A DNA stretch of 64,000 bases. Origin: Cymodocea nodosa (lineage: Eukaryota > Streptophyta > Magnoliopsida > Alismatales > Cymodoceaceae). The translations under genes were made by a program, and so were the position numbers. The notes beneath the pieces were generated by a model that was not told the DNA's origin, did no database searches, and saw only the letters and a list, made by a program, of their open reading frames with translations. Shown here one piece after another: positions 2,116 through 59,120 of this stretch (position 1 is its first letter; the number at the start of each line of letters is the position of its first letter). The DNA lies in contig CM072341.1 in the NCBI GenBank assembly GCA_036874045.1, positions 17,930,501 to 17,994,500 on the forward strand. Direction: 5' to 3'.

Positions 2116-2139
2116 ACATATGGATAATAATATCAAATA

Positions 2140-5100
2140 AGGGATGTTAAATATAAGTACGAGTATCCTTGTAAAGGGCAATGAGATGATCATTATGGTT
2201 GACTATGGGTTTACCTCATAGCTTGAGTTAGAGGATTGAGGTAGGGTAGTAGGAGCAAGTCATGGTTGTTAAGTGTAGACCTATAGGAGAGGAGAAGGTG
2301 TAGCATTTGGCATAAGTGTATCCTCTGGTACGACACTTGGGTCACTACTAATAGGAAGGGGACTAGGGATAGGAGTGTTAAGTCCTTCACTAAAAGTGGA
2401 ACTAATGGCAAAAAAGTAGAATTGAGACTAAAAAAAGGTGATATCCATGGAGATGTAGTATTTGTGAATAGATAAATGGTAGAGCCTATACCTTTTTTAA
2501 GAGCAAGGGTATCTAACAAATAAACATTTGAGAGTCTAAGGAAAAAGTTTGTCAAGATCAGGAGAGATTCTAAACAAATACAACACACTCAAAGACCTTA
2601 GGAGGTAAGGAGAACAATTTTTGATTCAGGTAGAGATGACTTAGGGGAATAACACCACCTAAGGAAGAAGAAGACATCCTGTTGATGAGGCAGATAATAG
2701 TAAGGATGACATCAGACCAAAAGTGTTTGAGAACATAGACATGTAGCATAAGAGTGCGAATAACATCAAAGATGTAACAATATTTTTTCTCTGCAACCTC
2801 ATTCTACGTGGAAGTATGTGGACACGTAGTCTGATGTATAATGCCAAGAGAGGAGCAAATGGCTTGAAACTTACGTTACTTAAATTCTAGGACAAGTATC
2901 AAATTGGTTTTTAATTTTAGTCAAAAAAGTTTTGAATACATCAACTATAGTATGATAATTTTTGAGAAGATAAATCCAAGAAACATGAGAGTAATCATTA
3001 ACAAATATAATGTAATAACAATGATCACTAATAGACTTATACAATTAAAACCTTAAATATCATAATGAAGTAAATCAAACATATTTGAGATTGACGACAG
3101 ACTTAACCGCTTAAAGGTAGCACGAGTATATTTCTCAAACTAATAAGACTCATATTGGAAAGGAGATAGACATCTACAAAAGGGCCTGATGAAATTTGTT
3201 CTAAGAGAGGTGACCTAAGTGGTAATGTCAAAGGATGGAAGATTCTGTACTCATCATGTAGGTGACCAACCCTTGAGGCATGTGATCATGAATCAAAAAA
3301 TAAATATTGTTGCTATGTTTATATCTTAAATCAATCCTTTGACTTGTCTGTAAGTTTTGAAAGATATAATGAAAAGAGAAAAAAGTTATAAACAGGATAA
3401 TTATTTAGTAATAGTACTAATAGACAAAAGATTAAAAGAGAGGTTAGGTACATAAAAGATATTGTTTAATCATATTTAAGAGAAAACCTGAACCTCTTCT
3501 TTATCAAATACAGGGTATGAACGATCATCAATAATGGTGATAGTAGACTTGTCATTGAGATAGGATAGACGGTCAAAAAGAGATAAAGTCCTGATATGTG
3601 TGAAGAGAATTTAAAGTTAATTACCTAGGGCTTATTGCCAAAGGCAATGAGAGTAGAGCTATTAGTAATACTTGAGGTGGAGGCATGAATGCTTATAACA
3701 CTAGAGTCTAATATCTATGATCGAAGAAGACGTTCATAGTTGGCTTATGAGATAGTATTAGTAGGTTCTCTTAAGACATCAATGTCAACGGTAGCAACAG
3801 ACTCTATACTAACGTAAGCCATCGTTGAAAGTTTTCCTCATTTGTTATAATACATTTCTAACCTGTGACCAAACCCATTGCACCATTAACATTTTGGACG
3901 TTGTCTATGACCTCTATGTCCTAAATGACCTCTTCCTTTACTTTTTGAAGTTGCAAGAGTAGATTATTAGGCTATGGGAGTATCAGTTGATGGTGTGGAG
4001 ACTCATAGGGCCTAAGAAATGTTTCCTCTAAATCAAGCATAGATTTAGTTCTAAGAATAGAACCACAAATTTGTGATGTAATCTCTAGGTTAATGCTAGC
4101 TAGAAAGCTAGCCATGACAAACTCCTCTTGATACTGAAGAAAGGTGACTAAGTTTGTAGTTAGAGGTTGATAGTAGTTGAGTTTGTCAAGTAGACCATGT
4201 AAGATATTGTAATGTTCCTGACATATCTTGCCACCTTGCTTCAAATTGATAATCTGCTCGTACACTTGAAAAACCTTGAAAATATTTTTCTCGTGACCAT
4301 AGGTTTTTCGTAAACTATCTCAAATTTTCTTGATGAGAAGTAACATGACTACTTCATATGCAATAGTTGGCTCCATATTAGAGAGCATCCAAGATATGAT
4401 GACGACATAATCTGTCTTCCAATCCTTATATGTTTTGCCCTTGACATTTGATAGAGGATTGTATAGACGATCTTTCCTGCGATAACCTTTAAGGATAGTC
4501 TCAAAGTTTTAAACCATAAAAGGTAATTGATTCCATTAAATTTTTCCATAATTCTAGGAAAATTCTTGCTGAATAGATCTTGTGAACTCATTGTAGTGGA
4601 ATAGCATAACAGGAAAATTCTTGAATTTAGTGGACAGACCGTGTACCAACAAAGGGACAAACAACACATGAAGGAGTGGTGGACAAACACAACATCACCC
4701 CTTTTAGAAGGTCTCGTACGCATAGACTCATCTCGATTGGAAGGAGAGACTTGCCGTGTGATGTAGATGAGACAAATGTCCTTATGTATACGTAGATGAT
4801 TGGAAAAAAAGGAGCGCTTTCTCACATTCTTCTCTAACGTGCAACACAGATGAGACACATAAGCAAGTCTGCTCGCATTCTTCTCTAGCATACAACATAG
4901 ACAAGATAGACTTTCTCGTGTTCAGCTGGTTGTGGAGATGAAGACGGATTGACAACAAGCACGAAATGGGATGGTTGTAAAGGACTGATGATAGCTAGAG
5001 AGGGAAGACTGGAGGTTTAAAACTATTTGCTTTGATACAAAGTTGAAGAAACTCTTATTTCCTTAACTTCATTGTGTTGTACAAGTTACATAGGTATATA

Positions 5101-7590: not shown

Positions 7591-10500
7591 ATGATGCCGT
7601 CGTCGAGGTTCCTCTCCCTCGACCTCCTCGTCTCTGCTCTCATGCTGTTGCTGATTCTGCCGCTAGTGCTTTTGCAATTGCCTCAGGTAGAGTCCCAGCG
7701 GTTCCTCTCCCCGGTCTACAGCGACTCCGTTTATCTGACCAAGGACGAGCACTGGATCAACCAGACGCTCGACCACTTCTCCCCCACCGTGAGCTCTCCA
7801 CCTCCTACTCTTTAATACCGCCATCTTACTGGTTGTTGGATGATGTTACGGGACGAGGTTTGCGTTGAAGGGTCCTTCCTTTGTTTCTTGCATGCAATAT
7901 GTTGCGTTTCGTGAATTTGTTTCTTCCTCCTCCTCTCGGATGGTCGCTTGTTTTAATGCGTGTTGTGATGGAGGTTCCGAAGTTTCTGGACGGGAGAGAC
8001 TCGGCTAACGTCTTTTCTTATTCGGTGCAGCAAAGTGGGAGTAAGAGTGTAAGACGTTAGTCTTGCAACCGTTCTCCAACGTCCTTGAATGGTTGCGAGA
8101 GGACTAATTAATCTGTAGCAGTGTATTTGCGTTGTAGATTCTCCGTTAGCTGTTAACAATCCGCATCGTTTGAAATGGAATGAAGTGGTATTGGATTTTT
8201 TGTAAGTGTTGATGGTTTATTGCAATTTACTTCGGTCTATTTCTTGGCTTGAAGTGAAGCGTCTTAAATTTTTTCTATTGTTGTGTTTTGTCTTCAAAAG
8301 CAACATTAAAGTTAATTAGGACACGTGTTTTAATGTCATTAAATCATCATCTGGATTAAATTTCTCTCTATTTGTTCTCATGCTATGTCATCTCTTTATA
8401 ACTAGACATCATTCCTTAGAACGAACCCTGTAAATTGTCTAGTCAAATCCACTTGTCTAAAGTGTTTTTCGATGAGCCACCTCCTCTTGGTCTGTTCATA
8501 TCATTTGTTGTGCCTAGTGAGGCTTCTTTCCCTTCGGAGGAAAAATTTGTGAGTCTGTGTAGACCTCCACCTGATTCAGCTTTATTGCCTTTGCCAAAGC
8601 AAGGAATGTCTACATAATTGGTTAGTCTAGAGTTCAATTGGATGAAGTGTTCAAAGTGGGTGCCCTTTGGGTTGATGAGGAGCATGCCTGCTCTCTAACC
8701 CTTGCTCATTGAAGAATCATTGATGTGTAGGAAGTACTCTAGATGTACGTTGCATAAAAAGTTAGGAACTTATTTCCATGTCTAGGCAGATGTTTGTAAA
8801 CATTTATATTGGATAGGGAGTATTCTAGATTTTTGCTATGGACATCCATGACACTGTGGATGATAGCTAGAGTTCTCCAGATGTCCATTAACAAGTAGAT
8901 GGGTTGATGCATGAAGGTCAAGACATATGTTTGAATGTTTGATGACGGTTGTTAGTTTTGGTGTACCTCTTTGTCGATCCATTTACTTGTAAATGGATAT
9001 TCATTTAGTGTAGGGTATATTTACCTATTTGTTATGCAATAGAAGATTAACTTCTTTCATTTTAAACTTGGTATCAAAGCAAGGGCTTCTATACTCACCC
9101 TTGTTTCTCGACCGTCGACGAAGACTCACCCTTCCTACTGTAGACGCATCTCCGTACCCTTCCTTCAAGCTTCTTCCTGCCTAGAGCTCTTTCGGTACTT
9201 CGCAGAGTCTTTTCTTTCGTAGAGTCTTTTCTTTCAGTACCATTGTTGCTGTTAGCGATGTCGTCGATCGACATCGAACATGTCATCAATGTTGTCTGGC
9301 TAACGTCGACTGCTCGAAGATGAACATGTCATCTGGCCACTATCGAGTTGAACAGTCGACTACTCGAAGATGAGATGGATAGTCTAGTCTGCCATCCTCG
9401 TCTCTTCTAGATAGTCCCATCTGATAGATAGTCCTGTACGTCATCGTCCTTTGATTTGCTATAGTGCAATAGTGTCCTCCATCAATTTGCTATAGTGTCT
9501 TCTGTCGATTACTATAGTTTTGCTACAGTGATTGCCATAGTGTTACCCCCTGTCCAGTTTTCTTTAGTTGGTGGCTCTTAGCTTTTCCACATCCGCTCAA
9601 GGAAATCAGAGTGTTCCTCTACTTGTTCGACATTTTCCAGGCATTTCTGAATGTCTAAATGGTCCTAATTATATTTTATGGACCTAGACCTTCGAAACAA
9701 TAGTGATAGGTTACTACTAGGAGCATCATTTACATCTGCCTCCATTAGATGTTAAAGATCCAACCTATAAAGATTGGTATGCTGCTATTATTTCATGGAT
9801 TTTGTCTAGTATGGAGTCATCTGTCGCTTGCAATGTATCCATGCTACGTCCAGCTTGAGAGATGTGGGTTACTCTACGATGGATGTATAGTCATGAAAAG
9901 TAGGATTGCCAGCAATGTATATGACAACTTGATTATCACAATGTAGAGGCATAGGACCACATTCACCCACCCCCAACTCTTACATCAAGGCCTTTAACCA
10001 AATGAGTTCAAATATAGCATTAGACTTGGCCCGATACTCAGCTTCAACACTAGACGTTGAGACAATGCTCTGTTTCTTGCTACGCCAAGTAACCAGATTT
10101 TCTCCAAGAAAGGTTAGATAACCAAAAGTAGATTTTCTATCAATTTGATTACTAGCATATCCAGCATCGGCAAAATCCTCAATCTGTAAGTATCCATGCT
10201 TCCCATATAGAAGACATTTTCTAGGAGCCTTTTTTATATAAGATAAGACTTGAACTGCTCCCTACCAATAAATCTCACGTAGAACATGCATAAATTGACT
10301 AAGGAGATTAACAACATAGGAAATATTAGGTCTAGTGACATTTAAATAGATGAGTTTCCCAATGAGCCTTCTATATTGCCTTGGTTGATCATATAGAGGA
10401 GTGCTCTCTTTCCAAAAGGAGTGGTTAGGCTTAATAGAAGTGCTTTCAGGTTTACAACCCTTAAGACCTATTTCTTTCAAAAGATATATCGAGACAAGCA

Positions 10501-13500
10501 TTACTTCTCCTTTGAGATAAAGAGAGACCTCCCTTGGAGAATGCAAACTCGATTCCTAAGAAATATCAAGGTGTGCCCATATCTTTTGTAGCAAAATTCT
10601 GACGAAAAAAATGCTTTGTCTCATTAATACTCTCTATGTCACTACCTGTCAACAACATATCATTAACATTTACAGGAAGAATGACAATGCCCCGTGAGAT
10701 ATGTTTAATAAAAAGAGAGTTATCAACTTTTCAACTATCAAAACCTTCGCTCCACATAACATTGCTGAATTTTTTAAACTAAGCCTTAGGGTTCTATTTG
10801 AGTCCATAGATGGTCTTATTAAGAGAACACACCTGAAACTCCTCCTGAACAACATATCCTAGAGGTTGGTCTATAAACACTTGCTCATCCAAATCCCCAT
10901 AAAGGAATACATTCTTCACATCAAGTTGTGTCAAAGACCAAGACTGATTAACTGCCATGGAAAGGACTCGTATAGAATCAAGTTGTGCCACAGGAGAAAA
11001 AGTTTCTGAATAGTCCACTCCATATTCTTGAGAAAAACTTCGAGCAACCAGCTGAGCCTTGTACTGATCTACAAAGTCGTCAATCTTATGTTTGATGGTG
11101 AAAATCCATCTATAAGAGAGTACACTTGTCTTTTAGGACATGGAACCAAATCCCAAGTGTCACAAGTCAACAAGGCATCCATCTCTTCATTCATAGCCAC
11201 CTTCCAATGAGGAACTTGAAGAGCTTTTGTAGCATTCTTGGGTAAATCCTTGGTGGAAATAGCAAGGGTGAAATCACGGAATGTGGAATTAAGGTTATCA
11301 TAAAAAACAAAATTGGATAAAGGATGAGAAGTGCATGCCCGAGTCCCTTTATGATGGGCAATCGACAAGTCATCAATAGGCAAAATTGAAGCAGACTCAC
11401 ATTCAGGAGTAGAGGTTGGCTTAGGTGTAGCAGAATGCTCAATGGAAGGTGGGCGTGGTCTTCAACTATATAGCTGAAGTGGTTGTTGATGGTATGTATG
11501 TTTAGACTCTGACTCAATGGAAGATGTAAGAGGGTCATGATTAATCTCAAGAGGACCAAGAATAAGGGTGGATAGGTGTTCATCAAGAAGTGAAGAAGAT
11601 TCATCGACATTGTTAAAATAGGATTGAGATTCAAAGAATGTGACATCCATAGAAACATAATATTTCTTAGTAGAGGGATGATAGAAACGATACCCTTTTT
11701 GGGTTCGAAAATACCCAACAAAAATACATTTAAATGTTTGAGGAGATAATTTGTCAAGACTAGGAGATAAATCTTGAGTAAAGGCAATACATCCAAAAAT
11801 CTTGAGAGGTATAGAAAATAATTTCTTATCAAGGTAGAGGTGATGAAGAGGAATTTCTCCCTCTAAGAGGGAAGAAGGCATTTGATTGATGAGGTAGGTA
11901 GCAGTGAGAATGACATTGAACTATAAGTATTTAGGAACTTTGATTTCACACATGAGAGTCCGAGCTACATCTAAAATGTGTCGATGTTTCTACTTAGCAA
12001 CATCATTTTGTTGAGAGGTATGTGGATAAGTGGTTTTATGTACAATTCCAGAAGAAGAACAAATAGATTGAAAAAAGGTTTGCATAAACTCAAAAACATT
12101 ATAGTGCACACAATTTTAGGGCAAACAGAGAATTGATTTTGTATTTCAGCAAGAAATTCTTTAAAAACACTAACAACATTATGATGATCTTTCAACAAAT
12201 AAACCTAAGATACACGAGAATAATCATCAACAAATACAACATAATATTTGTGACCTCTAATAGATGAAACCCGACTAAGGTCTCAAACATCATTGTTAGT
12301 ATGTGTGGGTATTGTATCTGGGTATATGGATCCTCTCCTATATGTATACCCTCTATGTAACCTATTTTCATGTGATGAATCAATTTTTCCCTCTCCTTCT
12401 TCACAACATGGTATCAGAGCCCTAGGGTTCGTTTTCCTACTGCCACCACTGTCAGAACCTTGGTTCTGTCATTGCTGTCGGAAATCAAGTTCCGCAGCCG
12501 TCGCCGGTCTTCTCCCTGTGCCACCACTACCGCCGCCGCCTACGCCACTGCGACCACCGCCACGGGTTTCCCCTCTGTGCGGGATTCCCTTTTCCTTTTC
12601 CTTCTTCACAATAGAGAGGTTGTGAAGTCCACCAAAAAAAAAAAAAAAATTGTCATCTTGGATGGTGACTACTATGGTATTCTAGGTCAGCTAGTTTGCT
12701 GATTTCTGTGCAGAAGGTGGCTACTGAATCTACCAGTATTGCAGAAGGAAGTTGCTGAACTCTCCTAGTTTGTGGGATGTTGTTCCAAGACTCGATGATA
12801 CATCTCATTTCTGGACTATCCGTGAAGCTGAATGAATTCAACTATCACACATGGTCACTGAGCTTTCTCACCTTTGTTGCTCCTTAAAGGAAGAACAAAG
12901 ATCTGACCTAGCCTCTAGTCGATATCAGAGACGCCACCTATGATGATTGGTTTGTAGATGATGCTACAGTTATCACTTGGCTAGAGAACAATATTGAACC
13001 ATTCGTGGCTAAGGGAGTAATGATGCTTCGTCTTGCCAAGTTGATTTGGGACACCCTGCGGCAAATGTATGCCGAAGAGAGAAACATTTTGAAGGAATAT
13101 GATGTTTATGAACAAATTTCAACCTAAAGATGGCTAGTCAGTTTGTACAAGAGTATTATGGGACTATGAGGTTCTTATTTGAGGAGTTAAATGTCCTACA
13201 ACCCTCTACCACTGACTTGGCAACTCTACAGAAGTACAGAAATGATTTGCAGGTGGTTGCTTTCCTTTATGGTCTTCCCTAGGAGTTGGTTTCCTAGGTT
13301 CGGGGGCATCTGCTTGGGGGGGACACTACACCGGATCTTGGATCTGCCTTTGCTAGGGCTTTACGTATCTCTAAGGCTACCTTGTGGCGGGCGTAGAACC
13401 CTCAGACAGTTCAGCCATTGCTGTGAAAGGGAAATAGGAAAGCCGCTCCAACTCAGGGACATGACAAGCAGGCATTGGGCGACGTAGTCTCGCATATTCA

Positions 13501-16500
13501 TTGTAGAAAGGTAAACTACAAGTCGAAAAAATGTTGGGAAAAGCTTGGTAAGCTTGCTTGAACAAGGGTAGCTACTGAGGCTCATGATACACCTACTGAG
13601 GGCAACACTTCAAGGGAAGCTTCTATAGTAATCTCACAACAAGAGTATGAGAGGTTGAAGTGGACACATGGCTCCAACCCTCTAGTCGCTGCGTCCTTGG
13701 TATCCACTTCTAGCATGACTGTGCGTACCAGTGAGACATAACCCTGGATTGTTAATTCAAGTGCCTCTTAGCACATGACAAATTGTCCTACCCTCCAAAA
13801 AATTCCAAGCTTTCAGAGTGTTACTATTGTTGATGGTAGTTCATGTCCAATATCCAGATGTGGCACAGTGATGTCACTCTTGATATTCGGCTTGAGAATA
13901 CCTTTTTTGTTCCCGAATTGTCTATTAATTTGCTTTTTATTAGTGCTATTACTGTCCAACTATCCTGTTTTGTGACTTTCTTTCCTTTTCATTGTACATT
14001 TCAAGATCTGCAAGCGAGGATAAAGATTAGTTTGGGCCATAAGAGGAGCTCAGGGGAGTATGCTCTCGCTTGAGATTCGATCTTGTGTGGTCTGGTGGCC
14101 TCATTGTCCTCCATTGTTGTGTCTTCTCTTCTTTGGCATCATAGGCTCGGTTATCCATCTATTCACAAACTACGCTAGGTGTTGCCTTGGGTTGATGTTT
14201 CTGAGTTTATGTATGAGTCTTGTTAGTTGGGTAAACACTCTTGGACATCCTATCCTCGTGTTTCTTTAACTAAAAGTGTTGTTATGTTTGATTTGATTCA
14301 CTGTGATGTTTGAGGTCCTAGTCGTGTAACCTCTGTCAATGGGTATCGATATTATCTTGTCTTAGTTGATGACTTCTTTAGAGTCTGTTGGGTGTATATT
14401 TTAAAAGATAGGAAAAATATTGTTATGATTATTCAACGCTTTGTTCAAGAAATTATTACTCAATTTTCTGTTACCCCAAAATGTCTCAGGACAGATAATG
14501 CTCTTGAATTTGTGAGTGCTCAATTTCAACAATTTTGTGCTTCCCATGGTATCATTCACCAAACTACTTGTCCTCACATTTTTCAGCAAAATGGAGTGGC
14601 TGAAAGAAAATATTGGCATTTTTTAGATATTACTAAAACTCTTCTTATTTACATGAATGTTCCTAAATATCTGTAGGCAGATGTTGTTCTTATTGCTGCC
14701 TTCCTTGTGAATAGGATGTCTTTTTCTCCTCTTGGGGGGGAGATACATTTTCTTAGACTTTATCCTGAGGGTGAACTCTTTACTCTGACTCCTAGAGTCT
14801 TTGAGTGCATGACATATGTTCAGAACTTTACTCTTGGTTTGGACAAACTTGATGCCTGTGCACTCAAGTGTGTGTTTGTTGGGTACTCTAAAATTCAGAA
14901 AGGGTATAAGTGTTATCATCCTCTTACCCAGCGATATTACACTACCTGTAATGTCACCTTTTCTGAGGATCAACCTTATTTTCTCTCGGGGGTAGATGAC
15001 TTAGGTGATCCCCTCACTTCCAGCACCCCTTTACTTCCTTGTACTACTCCTGTTCAGTCTAAGGTTCCTATGGTGGGTGAGCATCATACTAGAGAGGGCA
15101 ATGTCGGTGGGGACAGACCATTGTAGGTGTATTGCAAGCGGCAACCCGAGCCCGACTCTTTGGCTACACCAAGAATCTCCTCGAAAGTAGATTCTACCAT
15201 GCCTTTAGATGACCTACCCATTGCCCTACGAAAAGGTACACGTACCTGTACGTAACATCCTATCTTCCATTTTACTTCTTGTGATCACCTTGCACCCTCG
15301 TGTCGTACCTTTGCACTGTCTGTCATGTTTGAACAGGTACCTAAGACTTACTAGGAAGTATTCAAATGTCCCACTTGGAAACAAGTCATGGATCAAGAAA
15401 TGGATGCCTTGTTGGCATGTGGCACATGGGAGTTGGTTTCTTGCCCTGTAGATGCTAATCTAGTCTCTTGCAAGTGGATATTCACTATGAAGTTTAACCT
15501 TCATGACATTGTGGACAGACACAAGACACGTCTTGTTGCTAGAGACTTTACTCAGGAATATAGAGTTGATTATGCTGAGACTTTCTCACTTGTTGCACGT
15601 CTTAACTCTATCAAGGTGCTACTTTCTGTAACTGTCAACAAAGGGTGGCAATTTCATCGATTTGATGTGAAGAATGTCTTTCTTTATGGAGATCTCGCAG
15701 AGGAAGTGTACATGGCACAACTACCTGGTTATGTTACCCAAGGTAGTCAAATGGTATGCAAGCTGAAGAAAGTCATTTATGGCTTGAAGCAAAGTCCATA
15801 AGCGTGGCTTGAGAGGTTGAGTAGGATTCTCTTTGCAGGAGGATTCTGAAGATGTGTTGTTGATCACTTAGTTTTTATTTGCATTTCTCCTAGGAGGTAC
15901 ACTGTTTTGGCTATATATGTTGATGATATCATCCTTATTGGGGATGACAGTGTGGACATTGTTAGAACAAAGGAACATCTTGCCAAGGTCTTTGAAACCA
16001 AAGATCTAGGATGACCAGGGTGTTTTCTCAGTGTTGAGTTTGCATACTCAAAGGGAAAGTTGATGTTGTCGCAAAGGAAATATGCACTTGACTTATTGAC
16101 TGAGACTGGTACTTTAGGATGCAAGCTTGAGGTCACGTTTATCGAGCAGAATCCTTTCTTTTGGGATTTATCTTCTAATGAGTTGTCTGATCCAGGCAGC
16201 TATAGGAGATTGGTGGGAAAGTTGATCTATTTCACTATTACTATTCCTGACATTACTTATGTTGTAGGGCTACTTAGTCAATTTATGCATCAACTAAGAG
16301 AAGTGTGTTGGCAAGGTATCCAACGGGTACTTGCATATATCAAAGGCATCCTAGGGAAATGATTGTTGTACCAACATCATGGACACCTGGATGTGGAGGC
16401 CTTCTCAGATGTTAACTTTGCTGGTAACAAGGGTGACAGGAAATCCACTTCTAGGTATTTGACTTATGTAGGAGGGAATCTAGTCACCTAGAGAAGTAAG

Positions 16501-19500
16501 AAGCAAAGTGTGATATCTTGTTCTAGTGCAGAAGTTGAGTATAGAGCTATCTGTCTCATGGGTTATGAGATGGTTTGGCTATAGTCTTTCTTAAGGGAAC
16601 TAGGGCAAGACATCAAAGAACTTATGGTAATGCACTGTGACAACCAGACTACCATCCACATTGCCAAGAATGAGACGTTCCATAAGCGTACTAAGCACAT
16701 TGAGATAGATTGCCACTATATCAGAGAGTTTGTCTCTAAAGGAGTTGTTAGTACCCCTTACATCTCCTCCTCTGAAGAACGGGTTGACATTCTGACAAAG
16801 GCTCTAGGTCCAAAGTCTTTCAAGTATCTTTGTAACAAGTTGGGATTGATTGATATTTTACTCTCCAGTTTGAGGGGGAGTATTAGTATGTGTGGGTATT
16901 GTATCCGAGTATATGAATCCTTACATGTATCCTCTTCTATACATATACCTTCTATGTAACCTGTTTTTGTGTGATGAATCAATTTGTCCTTCTCTTTCTT
17001 CACAATAATCATAATGGACTAAATTAAATTTATTACACGACGAGGAAAGACGCAAACGGTTAAAGGTAGCACTGGTGTGCTTTCCAAACTGACAAGCTTC
17101 ACAATTAAAAGAAGATACAGACACCTATGGAAGAACTTGACGAAGTTTCTCAAGAGAAGGGTGACCTAACTAACAATGTCACGTAAAAGAAGAGTTTTCA
17201 TTGGACATGTCGCTATCAAGCCACAAGGAACATAATCACGGACCAACAGATATGCCTTATTAAGATGCTTATGCCCTAAACCAATCCTTTGACTCGTTTG
17301 CAAGTCTTGAAAAGTACAATGAAAGGATAGAATGTGACTTTACATAACAATTAGATAGTAATGGTACTTATGGATGGCAAGTTGAAAGAAAACTTGGAAA
17401 CGTAAAGAACATTGTTCAGTCGTATCTGAGAGAAAACTTGTATTTCCTCGTGACTAGATACAAGACATGAATGACCATTAGCTATGGTAATAGAAGATTT
17501 ATTTGATATGGACATCAACCGATCAAAAAGGTTAAAAGTACCTAAAATATGGGATGAGACGCCTGAATCTATTATTTAGGAATCATTAGTGGAAGCAATC
17601 AAGGCATTTGGAATACTTGTATTAGGATGCGTAGATGGAGCGTGCACACTCATGGTAGTAGATTTTGACTCTTAAGTCTGAATAAGACAATCATAGTCAA
17701 CTTGTAGGATGGTGATAGTAGGTTCAGCAAGAAATAGAACGTTGTCTCAAAGTTTAATGCTGAAGTTGAGTATTAGGCCATGTCTATTGCTACATCTGAA
17801 CTCATTTAGTTAAAGGCCTTGATGTAAGAGTTGGGGATGGGTGGATGTGGTCCTATGTCTCTACATTGTGATAATCAAGTTCCCATATACATTGCTAGCA
17901 ATCTTATTTTTCATGAAAAGACTAAACATGTAGAGGTCGATTGTCATTTCATCTGGAACAATTTCTTAAGAAGGATCATATCCACTCCTTTTACTTATAC
18001 TGAAGATCAATTAACAGATGTTCTGACAAAAGGACTTAGTGTAGGTGTGTTTGAAAAATTCTATAACAAGTTGAACCTGTTAGATATCTATAGTTCAACT
18101 TAAAAGGGAGTGTTAGTTTTGATGTACCTCTTTGTGGATCCATTTACTTGTAAATGGATATCCGTTTAGTGTAGGGTATATTTACCCATCTATTATGCAA
18201 TAGAAGATTAGCTTCTTTCATTTTAAACTGCGATCATTTGAGCTTCTACAACTAATTTGCTCTCTTTTTCTTGGACTTATTTGTGCATCTATTTATATAG
18301 GATCTTAATGTACTTCAAGTAACATCATTCTGTAGAATTTCTATTTTTGCATTCTCTTGTAATCAATCCTTCTCCACAAAGGTCATTTGTGCTATATTGC
18401 TATTCTCTCATCGGATTAAGAACCTGTGCAGTGTAAAAAGTTTTACCTGCCTTCAAAGGGAGAAACAATAGTGGGACTTCACAGTGTGGCGATGTGTAAT
18501 TTAATTTTTTATTTGATTTTCAAGGGTATTTAGTCAACTTCTTGGATTTATATTTTTCGATCCATCTTTCCTTACAAGAGAAAAATAGGGAATCACTTGC
18601 TAGCAAGACAAAGATGGCTTTTGTGCATGTGTACTTCACCCAAAAGGGGTTGAATGAGCCTCTGATGTTTCTCATGCCTTCATCACTCCAGCTTGAGAGT
18701 CAGATTTAGGAGTCAGGGTGGTGCCACCTTGTCTACAGACAAATAAGGACCACATACTCCATCCAACTGATAGACAAGCTGTCTGAAACAGTTGATACTA
18801 CATATGTGCCCCTGTGGCTTTATGGGTGCACTTTGATTGGAATTTCTATCACACCATGATTCTTCTTTGAGGAAAGAAGCCACCTCAAAAATCAACTTTA
18901 AGCTCAACAATGCCAAAAAGACAGTGAAGGAGTGGATACCTAAGTGGGAATTGATCAAGGAACCCTGATCTTGAGGAGACACCTAAAGGAATTTGAAATT
19001 GAGGAAAGTGTCAAAACTCCTATCCATGCTGTCTTCTGTTGAAGCTCAAGGAATTAAGGCAGATTCACTGATTTGGGTTGCAACATCTCAAGGCAAGTTC
19101 ATGGCTAGGAGCTGTTTTGAGGTTCTGAGTACAAGATGAAGAAGTGGAAAGCATACAAGCTGGCATGAAGGTCTAGGCTTTACTGAAAGTCAAAGCTTTC
19201 TTATGGGTCTTATGCACATGAGAATGACCACAAAGTTATATCACAGCAAGTGGGCAAGTTCCACTGATCTGAATTGTATTTTTGCACAGTAGGTGGACTG
19301 CCTATTCTGTGTTTTCGAGGTGCTTGTTAGTGTATGGGGATGCTTAGGGGAACAGCTTGTAGCTGTGGGAAAAGTTCAAGACTGTGGAGGAGGCAAGGAA
19401 CTCATTGAAGTTCCATCGAACTTTGTTAGGGAAGGCTTACCAAAGCCAAACACCAGGTGCTAATTGTGATCCACGCAATCTGCTGAGCCACTTGGTTCAA

Positions 19501-28500: not shown

Positions 28501-31500
28501 ATGTTTTGGGATTGAGTGCTTTAAAATCTGAACCGTATCGATGCTTTTTGCCGATATGGATTGATATTGCCCAATGGAACCCTGTTAGCACTAGCATCTA
28601 GATAAGTTGGATGTGCCTTGTTGTAGGTGGTATTAACAGTGTGTTGCTGGATTGCACATCATTTTTTTCCCTTCACCTGTTGTATTTAGTCTCTCCCTTG
28701 TCATGTAGTAACTTTGTTTGGGCCTCTACCCATTAAATAGATTAGGGAATTATCCAAAAAAAAGGGTGTAAAGAGTAGGGATCAAGTTTTTCATTACCAT
28801 ATCATGAATATGGCAATCAACCTCGATATACCTAATACATTCATGGAATATAAGGTTATTGACTATGAAGATTATAGTCTAATTGTTACAATACATATGC
28901 ATGAAAGTTTGAATCATAAATCTAAGCTTATGTAGAAGAGTTTTAAGTCATATCATCTCATAAATAATTTGAGTCATGGACTAGTACTCTATTTTAGTGT
29001 TCAATTTAGAGACCATATTTTATTTCTTGTTTCATTTAGTGATTAGGTTTCCACCTACATAGGTGCAAAACTTAAAGTTGACTTTTTATCATCTTTGTCA
29101 CCTACGTAACTTTAATTAAAGAATGCCTTGATCATCAAATGGTTGTCTCCTATATACAAGACCTTTTTTAGGTGCATTCTTGACATAAGCAAGTACATTA
29201 AATGTTCCCTACCAATGAATTATTCTTAGTTTATGCATGAATTGACTATGAAGATTATAGTCTAATTGTTACAACACATATGCATGAAAGTTTGAATCGT
29301 AAATCTAAACTTATGTAGAAGAGTTTTAAGTCATATCATCTCATAAATAATTTGAGTCATGGACTAGTACTCTATTTTAGTATTCAATTTAGAGACCATA
29401 TTTTATTTCTTGTTTCATTTAGTGATTAGGTTTCCACCTACATAGGTGCAAAACTTAAAGTTAACTTTTTATCATCTTTGTCACCTACGTAACTTTAATT
29501 AAAGAATGCCTTGATCATCAAATGGTTGTCTCCTATATACAAGACCTTTTTTAGGTGCATTCTTGACATAAGCAAGTACATTAAATGTTCCCTACCAATG
29601 AATTATTCTTAGTTTATGTATGAATTGACTATGAAGATTATAGTCTAATTGTTACAATACATATGCATGAAAGTTTGAATCGTAAATCTAAACTTATGTA
29701 GAAGAGTTTTAAGTCATATCATCTCATAAATAATTTAAGTCATTGACTAGTACTCTATTTTAGTGTTCAATTTAGAGACCATATTTTATTTCTTGTTTCA
29801 TTTAGTGATTAGGTTTCCACCTACATAGGTGCAAAACCTAAAGTTGACTTTTTATCATCTTTGTCACCTACATAACTTTAATTAAAGAATGCCTTGATCA
29901 AATGGTTGTCTCCTATATACAATACCTTTTTTAGGTGCATTCTTGACATAAGCAAGTACATTAAATGTTCCATACCAATGAATTCTTCTTAGTTTATGTA
30001 TGAATTGATTAAGAAGACAAACAACATAAGCTTATATCTAGTTTTTTAACAATTAAATAAATCAATTTCCCAATTGATCTTCTATACTGTCATGGATCCT
30101 TTAAAGGCTTTGACAAAATTTTCCCAAAATAAGGGATTAAGCTCTATTGGAGTATTGTTAAGTTTACAATGCATATTTTCTTTGTGTCGAAGTCATTCTT
30201 TCTCTAGAGTATGCAAGCTAAATGTCCAAAAAGTACTTGGAATTGCTCATGCCCCTTGTAAGAAAGTGTGTTTAGATGCTTCTTAAGTGATAGAGATGGT
30301 TGCATCATCATTACCTATTAACAAGATATCTATTAGATTACTAGAATCATACAATCCCCTTTTGTTTTCTTGTAAAACACAAAATGAGCCATTGCACACC
30401 ATCAAAAGTCATCTATTAGAACTATTGAAATTTTCAAACCATACCTGTGAACTTTGCTTAAGCCTATAGATGACCCTTTTTAGTTTACACATTATGTTCT
30501 TCTAAGTAACATATCCTAGAGGTTACTTTATAAACAATTGAGTGAATCCCTAATTTCTTTGGTTTAGTCTCCTCTAGTTACAAATTACATAGACTTACTT
30601 ATATATACATATATGATGGACTACTATAACAAGTTGGTGATCTAGAGGTACATTATTTCTAGGTACATACTACTTTACACTTCTCCTTAAGTTGGAGCGT
30701 ATATATCAAATATGCTTAGCTTGTTATATAGGACATCAAAATTTTCGCACCTGAGACCTTTGGTGAAAACATTTGCAAGTTAATCTTTTAAACATGTGAA
30801 AGGTGTTAAGATGACTTTTTTCAACACATTATCTCTAATGAAGTGACAATCAACCTCAATGTGCTTTGTTCTTCTATAGAAAGTAAGATTGCTAGTAATG
30901 TAGATAACAACTTGATTATTGCAATACATAGGCATGAGAGTGTGAACTTTCACTCTTAATTCATGAAATAAAGTCTTTAGCTAGATCATCTCAGAGGTAG
31001 TTTGACACAACTCAATATTTTACCTCTACACTTAACTTTGACACAACATTTTGCTTCTTGCTACGTCAAATCATAAGGTTTCCTCTTAGATAGGTACAAT
31101 AGCCCAAAGTGGATTTTCTGTCAAGTTTTTCTCCTACATCTTACATTTGAGTAATCCTTTACTTGTAAGTGACCATACTTTTTGTAAAGAAGGCTTTTTC
31201 CAAGAGCCTTCTTTAGATAAGCTAGAATCCTACCTTACCAGTAGACAACTCTTGGTGTATGCATGAATTGACTTAAGAGGTTTATAGTGAAAGTGATATT
31301 TGGTCTTGTATTATTCAGATATATAAGTTTGCCCACCAATTGCTTATATCTCCTTGAATCTTTAAAAAGTGGAAAAATATCATGTAAGGAATGATTTTGT
31401 TCTATGGGGGCTATCTCTGGTTTACATCCTTCAAAACTAGTTTCTTTTAACATGTCTAACACATTTCTACTATGAGAGAAATAGTTGTTCTTTTGAATAA

Positions 31501-34500
31501 GTAAACTTGACTCCTAAGAAGTATCGAGAAGTGCCTAAATCTTTTGTGGTAAAGTGTTTGTTCAAGAATCTTTTTCTATCATCGATGTCTTGTTAATCAT
31601 CACTAGTGAGTAACATATTATCAACGTAAACCGCAAGAATAACAGTACCTCGAGAAGTCTTTTTGATAAACACAAAATGATCAACTCGGCAATTTTCAAA
31701 TCCATCACTTCACATAATGCTATTGAACTTAGCAAATAAGACCTTGGGGTTTTGTTTGAGATCATAGAGTGCTTTGTTTAACCTACATACACATGACTCC
31801 TCTTGAGCAACATAACCTAGAGGTTGCTCCATAAACATTTGTTTGTCTAAGTTACCATATAGGAAAACATTCTTGACAGTAAATTGACAAACTGGCCAAG
31901 AGTGACTAACAACAATAGATAAAAGGACATGGATAGAGTTAAGCCAGACAATTGGGGAAAAAGTTTCTAAGTAGTCAATCCTAAACTCCTAGGAGAACCC
32001 ATGAGCCACTAGACGAGCTTTGTACTTGTCAATGGAATCGTTAAGATGATATTTAATGGTAAAGACTCACCGACAAGAGACTACATTTGTGTCATTAGGA
32101 CAAGAAACTAAATCCCAAGTGTCACAAGAAAGTAGAGACTTCATCTCCTCATCCATATCTTCCAATGAGGGAGTTGAAGAGTTTAATGATGGTCCTTACG
32201 AATTAACTCTATAGATAGAGATAACGAAAAACTACGAAAGGTGAAATCAAGGTTAGCGTAGGAAAGTACATCGAATAAGGGATGCTGAGTACAAGTATGG
32301 GTGCCCTTGTGAAGGGCAATGATACAATCATCATGGGAGGAAGGGTGGTGGACGTTGCAATCGGAGTCAGAGGATTAAGGTAAGGTAGCTGGAGCACGTT
32401 GCGATTGTTGAGTGTAAACCTACAGGGGAAGAGTAGGTGTAGCATGTGGCACTAGAGGATCTTCTGACACAATACTTTGGGTACTGCCAGTGGGAAGAGG
32501 ACTAGGGACAGGAGTGTCAAGATCTTCACCAGAAGTGAGACCTTTGTCAAAAAAGTAGAATTGAGACTTAAAAAATGTGATATCCATAGAGGTGTAGTAT
32601 TTGTGAGTGGGGGGATGGTAGAGTCTGTACATTTTTTGAGAGCGATGATACTCGACAAATAGACACTTGAAAGCACGAGAAGATAGTTTATTAAGACCAA
32701 GAGAGAGATCTTGAACAAATGCAACACACTCAAAAACCTTGTGAGGTAGGGAGAACAATTTCTAATATGGGTAGAAGCAACTGTGGGGAATGGCATCACC
32801 TAAAGGAGAGGAAGACATCTTGTTGATGAAATAGACAATAGTAAGAATAATATCAAACCAAAAATGTTTGGGAACATAGACATATAACATGAAGGTGCGA
32901 ACAACATCAAGAATGTGATGATGTTTTGCTCACCAACCTCATTCTATGAAGAAGTATGAGGACACATGGTCTAATGTATAATGTCATAGGAAGAGTAAAT
33001 CACCTGAAATTTGGACTGTACAAATTTTAAAGCATTATCCATATGTAAAATTTTTGGACAAACATCAAATTGATTTTTAATTTCAGTTAGAAAGGCTTGA
33101 AATACATCGACAATAGTACGTCAATTTTTTGGAAGATACACCTTAGAGATAGGAGAATAGTTATCGAAAAATATGATGTAATAGCGATGACCATTAACAC
33201 GACTAAGACCCTAAATATCACAATGAAGTAAATCAAATAAATTTAAGGTTGATGACAGACTTAACCACTTAAGAGTAGCACATGTGTGCTTCCCAAGTTG
33301 ACACAACTCACATTGAAAAGGTGACATAGAAGCCTACAGAAGGGTTTAACCCTTAATGGTAATGCCAGAGGATGGAGGATTTCATATTCATCTTGTAGGC
33401 AACCAAACCCTAAGAAATGCAATCACGGACCAAAATGTAAATACCATTTTTGCACTTATACCCTAAACTAATCCTTTGACTTGTTTGTAAGTCTTTGAAG
33501 GTACAATGAAAAGGAAAAAAAATTATAAAATAAGATAATTGTTCAGTAATGACATTAATAGACAAAAGATTAAAGGAGAGATCAGATACATAAAGTACAT
33601 TGTTTAGTCGTATCTAAGAGGAGATTTGAACCTCCTCCTTACCAAATACAGGGTAAGAACAACCATTAGCAATAGTGCTAGTGAATTGACTATGAAGATG
33701 GAATAACCATTCAAAAAGAGGTAAAATATTTGATATGTGTGAGGAGACTTCAAAGTCAATGACTTAGGGATCACCATCAAAGATAATGAGAGCGGTGCTA
33801 GTATTGATACTTAAGTGAGAAAAGGAGGCATGGGTGCTCATAGCATTAGATTTTGATCTCTGTGATTGAAGAAGATGCTCATAATCTGTTTGTGAAATGG
33901 TAATAGTGGGTCTTCTTTAGACATCAACAATAGTAGACTTGGTACTAACGTGAGCTATTGTCGGAGTTTTTCCCCACTTGTCATAATACTTATTTGACCT
34001 ATGACTAAATATGTCACACCACTAGTATTTTGGACGTTATTTGTCACCCTCACATCTTGGGCAATCTTTTCCCCTATTTCTTGAAGTTACAAGAGCAAAC
34101 TGTTAAGAGGTGAAATTATCAGATGATAGTGTAAAGACACATAGGGCTTGAGAGAAAGTCTCCTCCAAATCAAGCATAGACTCAATGTTGAGAATAGAAC
34201 CATGGATTTGTGATACAATCTCTAGGTTGACGCTCACCAGATAGCTATCCACGGCAAGCTTCTTGTGATATCGATAAAAAGTAGTCAAGTTTGTAGTTGG
34301 AGGCTGATAACAATTGAGTTCATCAATTAATACCAAAATGGAGAAGGAAGCTTAATTAATACAATACCCAATCCAATCATGCCACTTGGTGCTAAACCCT
34401 ATGTTGTACATCACTTGCTCCAAACAACTCCACAATACACTGTCATGAGCTGTTTTATATCCAGCTTCCAAACAAGACTGGCCTTCTTTTGTCTCCATCA

Positions 34501-40500: not shown

Positions 40501-43500
40501 CTGTAATCTTATTACATAGGGTTAGTTACATGAATCCTTTTCTTCTAAATATTTTTATCATCAAATCTTCTATTAAATTACATAAATTTAAATCTTTCCT
40601 TGTAATTCTTAACTAAATAGTTTCAGTCCTACCTCCATTTTCTTTTAATTTGTTTACACTAATTAATTGATGCAACTCTTACTCTATTCCTAATAAAATT
40701 ATTTTTTAGTTTATCTCTCATAGTATTACCAATCATCTATCTAATCATACGTATATTAGCAATACTAATCTTTTGTACATGACTATGTTTTATAGTTTAG
40801 TATTTTAAGTCATAAGGTATAGTTAGATGAATAACAATTTTATAGAATTGTTTCAATTTTAAGGATATTCTTCTTAGAGTTCTTTGCACCATAAAATCAC
40901 GTTACTAGTGAGGGGGTAAACTATTTTATAGATTGAAGATTTATCATTGGTTTTTCTGATATAGAACTATTTGTCTCAATAATTCTCCTGTCACATGATA
41001 CTTCAAAAATATTTCTTTACTTCATCTTACTTTAATACTATAAATAACATTTTCTATAATTTTATCATTGTTACTTATTAGAAATTCTAAGTATTGAAAA
41101 GTCTTACTTTTGTGAATCTTACAGTCATTTAAGTACATACCTTCATCATTATTCCTATTTCATTAAACACGCATTCTGTATATTTAGTTATTGACCTATT
41201 TAATTTAATTTTTTTAGACTTTAAAGTGTCTCTTTATAATTTTAATTTAGAACTAATTTTTTCCTTTCATTAACTAAAATTATGCCATTAATAAATGACA
41301 TACACCAAGGTATTTCTCCTTAAATTTTTTTAGCTATTTCATTTATAACTAAGACAAGCAGGTATGAACTTGAAGAGAACTCTTGGTCTAAACTTATGTA
41401 TTAGAAATTCTCTACTTTTTCCTCTTGTATTTTTAATTCTAGTAATTATTCTTTCATACATATCCTTTGTAATATCAATCTATCCTATGAGCACTTTTTT
41501 CCTTTATAAAACTCACCACAATAGGTTTTTAAGTATTTTATCCTAAGTTTTTCTAAATCAAAGAAAACCATATGGAGGTTCTTTTTCGAAACTCTAAAAT
41601 TTGTTTATTAGTTGTTTAAGCAAATGAATAGCTTTCGTTGTTGACCTATAAGGCATAACTGTAAGTTTATTTACATACCTTGATTTTTGTTCATTTTTTT
41701 TTCATGTTTTCATAGTATAACTCTTAAAATTAAGAAGAAAATTCTATAAAACTGCTCTTTACCCAATTATACTTGATGGCTTGAAACGTTGGATTGTAAA
41801 GCATGACCATATGTAAAAAATTAGTAAAATGTGTATGCTTAGATGGATGAATAGTAACACTATAAGAGATAGGTTAAAAAATGATTCTTTTAGGAATAGA
41901 GTAGAAGTTACATCTGTCAAAGATAAAATAAGAGAAAATTAGCTTAGGTGGTTTGGTCATATTTTAAGAGAATAAAGAATGCAATAGTTAGGAGAAAATA
42001 ATTAATTGGTATAGGAGAAACTAAAAGAAATAGGGGAGACTTATAATTACTTAATTAGAAATTATGAAAAAGATTTAAATTTATGTAATTTAACTGAAGA
42101 TTTGATTATAGAAAAAGGATTTATGCAGCTGATCCCACATGGTAAGATTATAGCTCGACTTGTTCTTGTAAAGGAACTTGGAATAAAAGGGTAAACCTAA
42201 TGCATAAGAATGATAATGCTCAACACAACTTGTAATGTAGACCCAAGGACAACAAGTAAAAAACAAGTTTTTTTTGATCTCTAGTGCACATAATTAGTCC
42301 ATTTTCTAGATAGAGTGTATATGGGTTTAGCATCTCTACCCATTCCAACTTGTTTTATGTTTAGTATTTCATATAAGTTAAATCCTTCTTTCGGTAAAAT
42401 AGTTAACGATAGTCCTTATAATCCTTACCCTCTATATTTTAGATTCCTTAGAATTAAAAAAAGTAAAAACCTAAAGTTTGCCCACTGCTCTCCTCTTCCT
42501 TCCATTGAGTTTCAAACTCTCTTTTCTCTTGGTTCTCTTTTTCAGTTTCCCATGACAGTTGTAAGGATGAGGTGTATTTGCATTTATCTTCATGTTAATT
42601 ACAGACTTATGTTTGTTTGTTTCCGGAAAAGGGAGCAATCATTGTAACAAAATAGACGAGTCAATCTGTGTACATCACAACATATTTCCAACCCGTTTAT
42701 CTTACAACATTGGCAAGTGTATTGTTTAAGAATGGTTTGTGTTTGTCTTGAGCTGTTTGAATTTGGATTTTATCGATAAGTACATAGATTGACATATGTC
42801 GGTTTTGCAATTTATTGACACAAGAACAAAATCGATGTCTACATGATAATTTTATTTAGATACAATACTTTTCTTTCCCATTTTTCCATCAATATGTTGA
42901 AATTTTACTAACATATGCCACTTTTTCAACTTGTAAATCTGAAATGAAATGGAAGTTAAATTCCTAAGTGTTTGAATCTGAATGTTACGATTGACCACAA
43001 ATTAGGAATCATTTGCATGAAGCTCTCACTTATATGACATAGTGAGTACGCTGATACATAAGAAAACTTACTCCAATTAGGTTCTCCAATGCATATGTTA
43101 GAGGAGAGGCAAATAATAATATTGCATAATGAGCAATACAATCTCTTATATGTAGGATATAAAAATTACCTAATCTATAATTAGGTTATTATGTAATCTA
43201 TGACTACAAGTAACCTAATAAGGATTCTTATATTGATCCATTTATAGTTTAAATCTCTGCTCTAATGTATTTTTTGGCATCCTTTGCATCTTTGACGTAA
43301 AAAAATGAACTAGATAGTACCCAAGTAAGTTTACTTATCGTTATCTCTAAATCTTTCTTTCAAACTTTCCAGTGCCTTCTTACATCATAAAATGCCATAA
43401 TTGTGGACATGGCACTGATCTAAGAGGATGCCCACAGTCTCCATTAAGCATCGAAGGTACTTTTTTCTTCTGGAATCAGAGAAATTTTGCACCATAGAAA

Positions 43501-56687: not shown

Positions 56688-59120
56688 TCACCAGTAATTG
56701 CCACACGAGCATATACCATCTTTAAAATGATGGTACCTCTTGCCATCCCTTACAATGATCTCTCTACCCACTGCTTTCGACATGAACATGATTGCAATGT
56801 GGCAGTCCCCACAGATTCTCAAGTTTTTGAGGACCCTAACCGTAGCTCCAGTAGGCAACTTCAGAAGCCCATACCCAACCGCAAGTTTCTCACTGTGTGT
56901 GGACAGAACATATTCTTTCTGCTCAAGTTCTACGTCATGCAATACAAACTTAGTATTAGGAACATAGCCCAGCTTTCTCATTCTAGCATTGAGTATTTTA
57001 AGGAAACGATATACTTCCAATGCCTCGGGATGATCAGAGTCATTAACACGAAACACATGCACCTTGTTTGCAACTTCAATCCAGCTGCATCCAGGTTCTT
57101 TTTTCACATGATTGTCTTTCATCAATTTTCTAACCCTGGCTACGCCATCCCACATTCCTATAGAAGCATACATGTTTGATAGCAGAACATACGTTCCATC
57201 ATGTTGAGGTGTCATCTCAAAAAGCTGCTCTGCTGCATGGATCCCGAGCTCCAACTCCCCATGGATTCTGCAATTAGATAAAACAGCTTCCCAAATGAGT
57301 GGACCAGGTTTAAAAGGCAGTGATCTTATGATCTCTTTTGCCTCTGTAATCTTTCCAGCCTTCCCCAATAAATCAATTAATCGAGCGTAGTGTTCTTCAC
57401 CTGGCTCAATATTATAGTCATATTTCATATAGTCAAAGTACATCAACCCTTCATCAACTAAGCCAGCATGATTACATGCTGAAAGAATTGTGAGAAAAGT
57501 AATCTTATCAGGATAGATACCCTCATGAAGCATTTCCTCAAAGAAATCAATTGCCTCGCATCCATAACCATGCTGTGCAAGGGCCCCAATCATGGCATTC
57601 CAGGAAATGAAATCTACACAAGGCATCACAAAAAACACAGCACGAGCAGCGTCCACTGCACCACATTTTGCATACATCGTTACAAGTGCATTACCGGCAG
57701 AGTTACTTGAATCATATCCATACAAAAGAAGCAAGCCATGCATCTGTCGGCCAAGTTCTAAAGCTCCAAGTCTTGCACAGGCAGCAAATGCTCCTGAAAA
57801 TATATAATCACATGGCTCGAATCCTTTGCCCCTCATTTGGATAAATAGCTTTAGTGCATCCTCACATAAACCATTTTGTGCAAAACATGAGATCATCATT
57901 GTCCATGTCAACAGGTTTTTATGTGGGATCCTCTCAAAAAGATCTAAAGCATCATTAATATTTCCTGAGCTCACATAACCAGTCAACATAGCATTCCAAG
58001 AAACTATATCTTTCATACGAATCTTGACAAAAACCTTATGTGCATCGCTGACCTTTCCACATTTTGAATATAGCGTCACAAGTACATTCTCCACAGGCAA
58101 TGCCGATTCCGGATCAAAATCGGGCCCAGCTCGTAAAATGTGAGCATGAACTGCCTTACCCAGCTTCAAAAATCCAGCATCAGCACACAATGTCAACACA
58201 CTAGTGTACGTGAATTCGTCAAAAGGAATTCCTTTTGATTGCATTCTCGAAAACATCTCCAATGCCTCTGAGAAGCAACCATATTTGACGTACCCAGATA
58301 TCATCGCGTTCCATACACTATCCAAGTTTTCTGTCATCCCGTTGAAAAGATGCCTTGCCGCATCGATATCGCCACTCCTCAGATACCCTACTATCATCGT
58401 AGTCCACGTTAACTCATCCCTATCACACATTCTACCGAACACCTCCTTGGCACAAGAAGCTCCCTCGGGACAACCACACTGCCAATAAAGTGCAATGAGA
58501 GCATTGGAAACGGACACGACACTTTCCGTACCGTACTTCACAGCAGCACAATGAAGCTGTCTGCACGTACCAATGTTAAGCTCAGCAACGGCCCCCACAG
58601 CACTGATAATGCTCGTCAGCGTGTAGTCATCCGGCCGGAAGCTATCCCTAATCATATCTCTGAATAACCAGAACCCACGTAGGCCCTCCCCCGCCCGGGA
58701 ATACCCCGAGATCATCGAGTTATAAGACACAGTGTCCCTCATCCATACAGGCGTCTCGTCGAACATCTTCTCCGCAGTCTTGTAGTCTCCTACGCTGAAG
58801 TACGCGTTTATGAGTGTGGTCCGGCCGACGATGTCCGGTTGAGGACTTTCGTCGAACAGCCGGCGAGCGGAGGGAAGGTCGCCGGACTTGAAGTAGAGAT
58901 CGATGAGGCGGTTGAGAATGTGGCTGCGAGGCTTGAAACCAGAGGCCACGATGTGTGCATGGAGGGCGCGGAGGCGGTGGAGGAGAGGAGTGCGAAGGGG
59001 GTCAACCAAGGAGAGTTGTTGGAGGTGGGTGGCGTATCTGTTGGCGACGACGGTGACATCGGTGGGTAAGAACGGGAGAAAAGCTGCGGCGGTGGCGGTG
59101 GCGATGGCATTTTTCATCAT
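56688..59120 (-). CDS. PLS-class DYW pentatricopeptide repeat protein, At1g25360-like
   Basis: A single intronless 810-residue frame from ATG at 59120 (a second ATG follows at once) to the stop at 56688. PPR proteins of this class bind organelle RNA, and DYW members specify C-to-U editing sites. After an N-terminal targeting-like region, repeats run from about residue 60 to 620. Examples are LINAYFSVGDYKTAEKMFDE, NAMISGYVKYGCFSEALEMF and NALVTMYAKCGAVDAARAVF. The E region follows, then the PG box (PGCSWIEV, near residue 676) and the DYW deaminase with HSEK (His742) and CGDCH (Cys770, Cys773). It ends CSCGNYW, so the final tripeptide is NYW rather than DYW. As I recall, the Arabidopsis relative ends CSCGNFW, so this looks like a family trait. 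The targeted organelle and editing site cannot be read from the sequence. Confidence 0.95.
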   Translation of the reverse strand: MMKNAIATATAAAFLPFLPTDVTVVANRYATHLQQLSLVDPLRTPLLHRLRALHAHIVASGFKPRSHILNRLIDLYFKSGDLPSARRLFDESPQPDIVGRTTLINAYFSVGDYKTAEKMFDETPVWMRDTVSYNSMISGYSRAGEGLRGFWLFRDMIRDSFRPDDYTLTSIISAVGAVAELNIGTCRQLHCAAVKYGTESVVSVSNALIALYWQCGCPEGASCAKEVFGRMCDRDELTWTTMIVGYLRSGDIDAARHLFNGMTENLDSVWNAMISGYVKYGCFSEALEMFSRMQSKGIPFDEFTYTSVLTLCADAGFLKLGKAVHAHILRAGPDFDPESALPVENVLVTLYSKCGKVSDAHKVFVKIRMKDIVSWNAMLTGYVSSGNINDALDLFERIPHKNLLTWTMMISCFAQNGLCEDALKLFIQMRGKGFEPCDYIFSGAFAACARLGALELGRQMHGLLLLYGYDSSNSAGNALVTMYAKCGAVDAARAVFFVMPCVDFISWNAMIGALAQHGYGCEAIDFFEEMLHEGIYPDKITFLTILSACNHAGLVDEGLMYFDYMKYDYNIEPGEEHYARLIDLLGKAGKITEAKEIIRSLPFKPGPLIWEAVLSNCRIHGELELGIHAAEQLFEMTPQHDGTYVLLSNMYASIGMWDGVARVRKLMKDNHVKKEPGCSWIEVANKVHVFRVNDSDHPEALEVYRFLKILNARMRKLGYVPNTKFVLHDVELEQKEYVLSTHSEKLAVGYGLLKLPTGATVRVLKNLRICGDCHIAIMFMSKAVGREIIVRDGKRYHHFKDGICSCGNYW

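Follow-up and report, generated by a model that had tools for sequence, protein, structure and literature searches.

A dead copia element of Cymodocea nodosa with most of its body probably inverted between its own long terminal repeats

Results

Anatomy of the copia element

We analyzed a stretch of 64,000 nucleotides from Cymodocea nodosa (assembly GCA_036874045.1, contig CM072341.1, positions 17,930,501 to 17,994,500), hereafter the window, following up a reading made from its letters alone. Positions 8950-18229 hold one broken, dead plant copia element, hereafter the outer element, in which most of the body lies inverted between the element's own long terminal repeats (LTRs). The inverted stretch extends from the boundary of gag and protease into RNase H, of which it includes the first half. 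The two ends of the element are on the plus strand and consist of the LTRs, the primer site, the start of gag (to 9900) and the end of RNase H (17726-18103). The minus strand, read from 17725 down to 9891, carries the protease region, integrase, reverse transcriptase (RT) and RNase H, and is split by a nested element that we call C. Without C the outer element amounts, by coordinate arithmetic, to 9280 - 4714 - 5 = 4561 bp. The sequence-only reading had proposed a body inverted between LTRs of the same orientation, with the LTRs, primer site, gag start, terminal RNase H and polypurine tract all on the plus strand, protease to RNase H on the minus strand and about 4.56 kb left after removal of C. 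This description stands with small coordinate corrections, and its minus-strand part agrees with both tblastx and Pfam. We consider it probable that this is one element with an inverted body, the body and flanks having come from a single source.

An inverted duplicate of RNase H

The evidence for a single source begins with a stretch of RNase H, spanning S-K-K-Q to F-H, that is present twice in opposite orientations. The earlier placement of the pair at 9890-10080 and 17729-17925 is corrected here to 9891-10081 and 17726-17916. The copies are identical at 168 of 191 sites (88%, E 1.9e-64), which is far beyond chance. Each copy runs on without a break into its native neighbor, RT upstream for the minus-strand copy and the 3' end and LTR downstream for the plus-strand copy, as would follow from the splitting of a single RNase H together with a duplication of 191 bp. 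As had been claimed, both copies have the same TAA stop, located at 17825 in the plus-strand copy.

The 23 differences between the copies are distributed over the first, second and third codon positions as 7, 16 and 0, and all of the 21 changed codons alter an amino acid or a stop. In all eight comparisons between element lineages in the window the share of third-position differences was 43-53%; those eight pairs are much more diverged, and saturation would if anything lower this share. Given a share of 47%, simple arithmetic puts the probability of finding none of 23 differences at the third position at about 5e-7. The absence of third-position differences therefore indicates that the copies parted from a near-identical and already unconstrained sequence. 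Together with the shared TAA, it strongly disfavors copies that are old and evolved apart, and with them the first refuting case of the earlier reading, a body belonging to a clearly different family from the flanks. In a crude uniform simulation, random pieces of two elements complemented each other as closely as the body and flanks do in 3.6% of cases. The previously suggested single source is thus supported by the shared stop, the unconstrained differences and the near-complementary pieces.

Protein families and relatives in the window

Nine typed pieces were searched on both strands against Pfam (E up to 0.1). Five of them match a copia-type family. The gag piece, the two RNase H pieces and one alternative frame make up the four that match nothing. 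In the inverted body, the left part gives SH3_retrovirus (1.9e-20), RVT_2 (3.1e-50) and rve (5.5e-4, below its cut-off), and the right part gives Pol_BBD (5.9e-11) and gag_pre-integrs (2.3e-7). The RT piece also matches SOK at 0.076, below the cut-off, which we take as chance. On the minus strand the order is Pol_BBD, gag_pre-integrs, rve, SH3_retrovirus and RVT_2, which places integrase upstream of RT. Because Pfam is silent on RNase H, this name relies on the position after RT, on tblastx matches to the corresponding parts of C and of a further relative, D, and on known motifs. Rfam gave no match in the 64-kb window, and one scan of a viral contigs collection with a 98-amino-acid piece of RT found no relative.

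D (30660-34329) and E (2132-4585) are two further minus-strand copia remains, which we used as relatives; across some 2.1 kb (2132-4192 vs 32270-34329) their mutual identity is 72%. A 383-bp unit is repeated three times in tandem at 28858-30017 with 97% likeness, and parts of it match RT/RNase H of the copia body (10201-10310); this is probably a recent triplication inside a minus-strand copia fragment. The nested element C is flanked by a perfect 5-bp target site duplication (TSD), ATCAT, and its LTRs differ at 14 of 115 aligned sites (12.2%) in addition to a net length difference of 12 bp. C belongs to a different family from the outer element: where tblastx matches it to the inverted body over long stretches of coding frame, identity is 45-58%.

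LTRs, gag and junctions

The outer LTRs are identical at 111 of 119 sites and differ at 8 (6.7%), and blastn finds only these two copies of the LTR within the window. Both keep their ordinary inner neighbors, the primer site and the purine tract. We take TGGTATCAAAGC to be a primer site of the initiator-Met tRNA type, and AAAAGGGAG is presumably the polypurine tract; C carries TGGTATCAGAGC at the place equivalent to the primer site. A recent joining artefact would not leave inverted copies that are 12% apart and LTRs that are 7% apart, and on these grounds we infer that the arrangement is no assembly error.

Gag breaks off at S-H-E-K (9889-9900), and E-P-T (17725) opens the body. The two break points map in E to 4295 (the H of HEK) and 3768 (the E of EPT), so that 518 bp of gag is missing here as judged by this relative alone, in line with the roughly 500 bp estimated before. 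At the left junction we consider a microhomology of 9-10 bp to be probable. A near-palindrome in the plus-strand RNase H copy, TTTTTCATGAAAAG (17907-17920), gives TCATGAAAA when read antisense, and the tenth junction base fits the minus-strand copy only. An overlap of at least 9 bases arose in 55 of 400,000 random pairings of gag with antisense RNase H, but this figure is partly circular, as the gag used ends with the junction bases; it is because of this circularity that we do not grade the microhomology higher. Independent support is given by E, whose gag reads G-H-E-K-N and thus has H-E-K at the matching place. On the evidence of E's protein, H-E-K would have belonged to gag originally.

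Table 1 Features of the outer element. Positions are those of the window; a dot denotes a feature without strand.
Feature	Position	Strand	Basis or remark
5' LTR	8950..9068	+	119-bp direct repeat with 18111-18229
Primer binding site TGGTATCAAAGC	9069..9080	+	Sequence; directly inside the 5' LTR
Gag start, with stops and frameshifts	9610..9900	+	tblastx to E 4585-4287, reading frames
Left inverted junction TCATGAAAAG	9891..9900	.	Ten bases compatible with both the S-H-E-K end of gag and RNase H in antisense
Minus-strand RNase H copy, 191 bp	9891..10081	-	Inverted pair with 17726-17916; reading frame
Left part of inverted body: integrase, SH3-like, RT, RNase H	9891..12293	-	Pfam
Nested copia element C, own LTRs 12294-12408 and 16881-17007	12294..17007	+	Interrupts the inverted body
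Right part of inverted body: protease region and gag-pre-integrase	17008..17725	-	Pfam
Right inverted junction	17725..17726	.	Sequence
Plus-strand RNase H end	17726..18103	+	Second copy makes up its first 191 bp
Polypurine-tract-like AAAAGGGAG	18102..18110	+	Sequence; precedes the 3' LTR
3' LTR	18111..18229	+	Direct repeat with the 5' LTR

Other features of the window

On the minus strand, 56688-59120 is an open reading frame of 810 amino acids that, recognised by eye, resembles a plant pentatricopeptide-repeat protein with a DYW-type end; this suggests a flowering-plant host. A pair of inverted repeats at 40552-40863 and 41723-42114, 73-77% alike over about 120 and about 200 bp and with inner arms about 0.9 kb apart, is possibly a DNA transposon or a hairpin element.

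Discussion

Timing and points against a single inverted element

The divergence of the outer LTRs is 6.7%, that of the RNase H copies 12.0% and that of C's LTRs 12.2%. Compared to the outer LTRs, neither the RNase H copies (Fisher p 0.17) nor C's LTRs (0.18) are significantly different. Since the divergence of RNase H does not differ significantly from that of the LTRs, one age is possible for both. Dating by paired divergence thus gave no significant order of the events. C must be no older than its host, and an inversion after insertion no older than the LTRs; the observed order leans the opposite way. The apparent age of C, at least that of its host, may be explained by small numbers, and the higher G+C of the RNase H stretch (37-41% vs 29-31%) may raise its rate. 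An inversion at or soon after insertion fits better than a late one.

Several observations weigh against a single inverted element, the order of divergence specifically against a late inversion. The posterior probability of exceeding the divergence of the outer LTRs is 0.93 for the RNase H copies and 0.92 for C's LTRs, and the outer LTRs are the most diverged of the three in 2.5% of draws. The flanks of the outer element, ACGGT and GCGAT, agree at 3 of 5 bases with both mismatches being transitions, which makes for a doubtful TSD. At the gag junction C reads A-E-E-R, not H-E-K. The right junction has no clear microhomology, the body's native neighbor having been lost. For the shared stop, either the source must already have been defective, or time must have passed between insertion and inversion, or the mutation must have occurred repeatedly. 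Finally, a count of 0 of 23 at the third position is unlikely even under neutral drift (1.1e-4 when matched for base type, 4.9e-4 for C/G sites only).

This third-position deficit may be chance in a small sample. Counting both copies, 0 of 48 C/G sites changed at the third position vs 22 of 98 at the first and second. Among the latter, 9 of 13 sites in CG/CHG context changed compared to 13 of 85 in CHH (both copies, unpolarised), an excess that looks like the decay of methylated DNA. Methylation context was considered as the cause of the deficit and is insufficient alone, as 44 of the 48 unchanged third-position C/G sites are CHH. Polarising the 23 differences with D and C assigned 10 changes to the minus-strand copy and 7 to the plus-strand copy and left 6 unclear, D and C being too distant to help.

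Routes to the inverted form

Three routes from a single source can be ranked. The likeliest of them, in our tentative judgment and at less than even chances, is that broken chromosomal DNA was repaired either upon insertion or shortly afterwards. Under this route the break in RNase H would be staggered, and filling in both ends would leave the inverted duplicate; the break in gag would be resected by about 0.5 kb, and the left join would be sealed at the microhomology TCATGAAAA(G). A staggered RNase H break, a resected gag break and microhomology end joining would then make up one event that covers all features. Ranked next is a double template switch during reverse transcription, which explains the features about as well as break repair and which we regard as possible, at rather less than even chances. 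The growing strand would have left RNase H for DNA of the opposite sense, read through the body and, guided by the microhomology, rejoined gag RNA at TCATGAAAA(G). The inverted complementary DNA (cDNA) would then have been integrated, its source having been defective already, with the TAA in place, and having received help in trans. The ages of the LTRs and of RNase H are compatible with such a single event, and the probable microhomology at the left junction suits it. Inversions are reported in proviral genomes of human immunodeficiency virus 1 (HIV-1) (PMC9278108), and for LTR elements of plants template switching has been put forward (PMC1950507). Two switches are needed, however, one of them onto opposite-sense DNA, and neither the right junction, where microhomology is not clear, nor the doubtful TSD helps this route. 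Third in rank, and improbable in our view, is that a 191-bp inverted copy of RNase H filled a 0.5-kb break in gag and that recombination between the inverted repeats then turned the body. The observed anatomy is the expected remnant of these steps, and in maize, deletions can carry filler DNA copied from neighboring sequence (PMC2686159), although 191 bp exceeds the fillers quoted in the excerpt of that report (8, 1-131, 31-84 and 50 bp). This route takes two events, and it has left no trace that would separate it from a one-step inversion. The sequence-only reading had also named self-integration of the cDNA into itself. This is a known fate of retroelement cDNA (PMC2644782), but here both LTRs keep their ordinary inner neighbors, and an exact search of 9850-9940 and 17680-17770 (91 bases per inverted junction, either strand) found no LTR-end motif. 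Because no such motif lies near either inverted junction, we reject self-integration, giving it hardly any chance.

The remaining explanation involves two insertions of the same family: an element A on the plus strand would have received a near-identical sibling B on the minus strand, and two deletions would have taken B's LTRs and A's middle. We consider this unlikely, slightly more so than the double template switch. Nested insertion does occur here, as C demonstrates, and siblings of one source would also have had a common TAA followed by unconstrained drift. The left-junction microhomology suits a deletion equally well, and the lean of the RNase H copies toward higher divergence than the LTRs (posterior 0.93) is in its favor. 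Against this, two extra deletions are required that happen to leave near-complementary parts (3.6% in the crude simulation), and no LTR of B is present in the window, where blastn gives the two outer copies only. The 0 of 23 third-position differences disfavor older copies that had evolved separately as coding sequence. The earlier alternative of a separate antisense insertion with deletions is therefore not upheld for old separate copies, whereas for near-identical siblings it is weakened yet viable.

Comparison to known systems

The outer element shares with ordinary Ty1/copia plant LTR retrotransposons the position of integrase before RT, short LTRs, an initiator-Met-type primer site and a tract like the polypurine tract. 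Unlike them, it has its body inverted between the LTRs, is dead and lacks about 0.5 kb of gag. The HIV-1 proviruses of PMC9278108 include one with an inversion and one with an inversion and a deletion (1.3% each); there too part of a retroelement genome is inverted, with a deletion in one of the cases. Those are recent retroviral events, compared here apart from their junctions, whereas the outer element is old, belongs to the plant copia elements and carries an inverted duplication of 191 bp. In Drosophila mojavensis the staggered-break inversions 2h and 2q have inverted duplications at their breakpoints (PMC3355041), which flank the inverted segment as at the RNase H breakpoint here. The fly inversions are chromosomal and their duplications are kilobase-sized, compared to 191 bp at one breakpoint and a deletion at the gag breakpoint in our case.

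The complex elements that Sabot and Schulman (PMC1950507) described in Triticeae and other grasses are likewise rearranged LTR elements thought to arise in reverse transcription. In them two cores share a third LTR, and the TSDs are clear. No such third internal LTR occurs in the outer element (blastn gives two LTR copies in the window), and none of the grass elements is inverted in the excerpt of that paper, in contrast to the outer element. For human T-cell leukemia virus 1c (HTLV-1c), microhomologies of 4-10 bp were reported at 58 of 185 deletion junctions, for which the authors consider template switching as well as end joining to be possible causes (PMC13427564). Our literature search on inverted LTR retrotransposons returned a maize locus and HIV-1 but no plant copia case, which is weak evidence of absence, as the subscription literature lies mostly outside its reach.

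Conclusions

The rearrangement is of a known kind, and the outer element is a neat fossil of interesting anatomy and modest novelty. Because it is old and its LTRs are short, it poses the question of copying versus repair without settling it. Should the double template switch be true and the same junctions recur in other copies, the inverted form would be a mobile lineage in its own right. A clear case would let plant retrotransposon inversion be apportioned between copying errors and DNA repair, by comparing the age of the duplicated ends to that of the LTRs.

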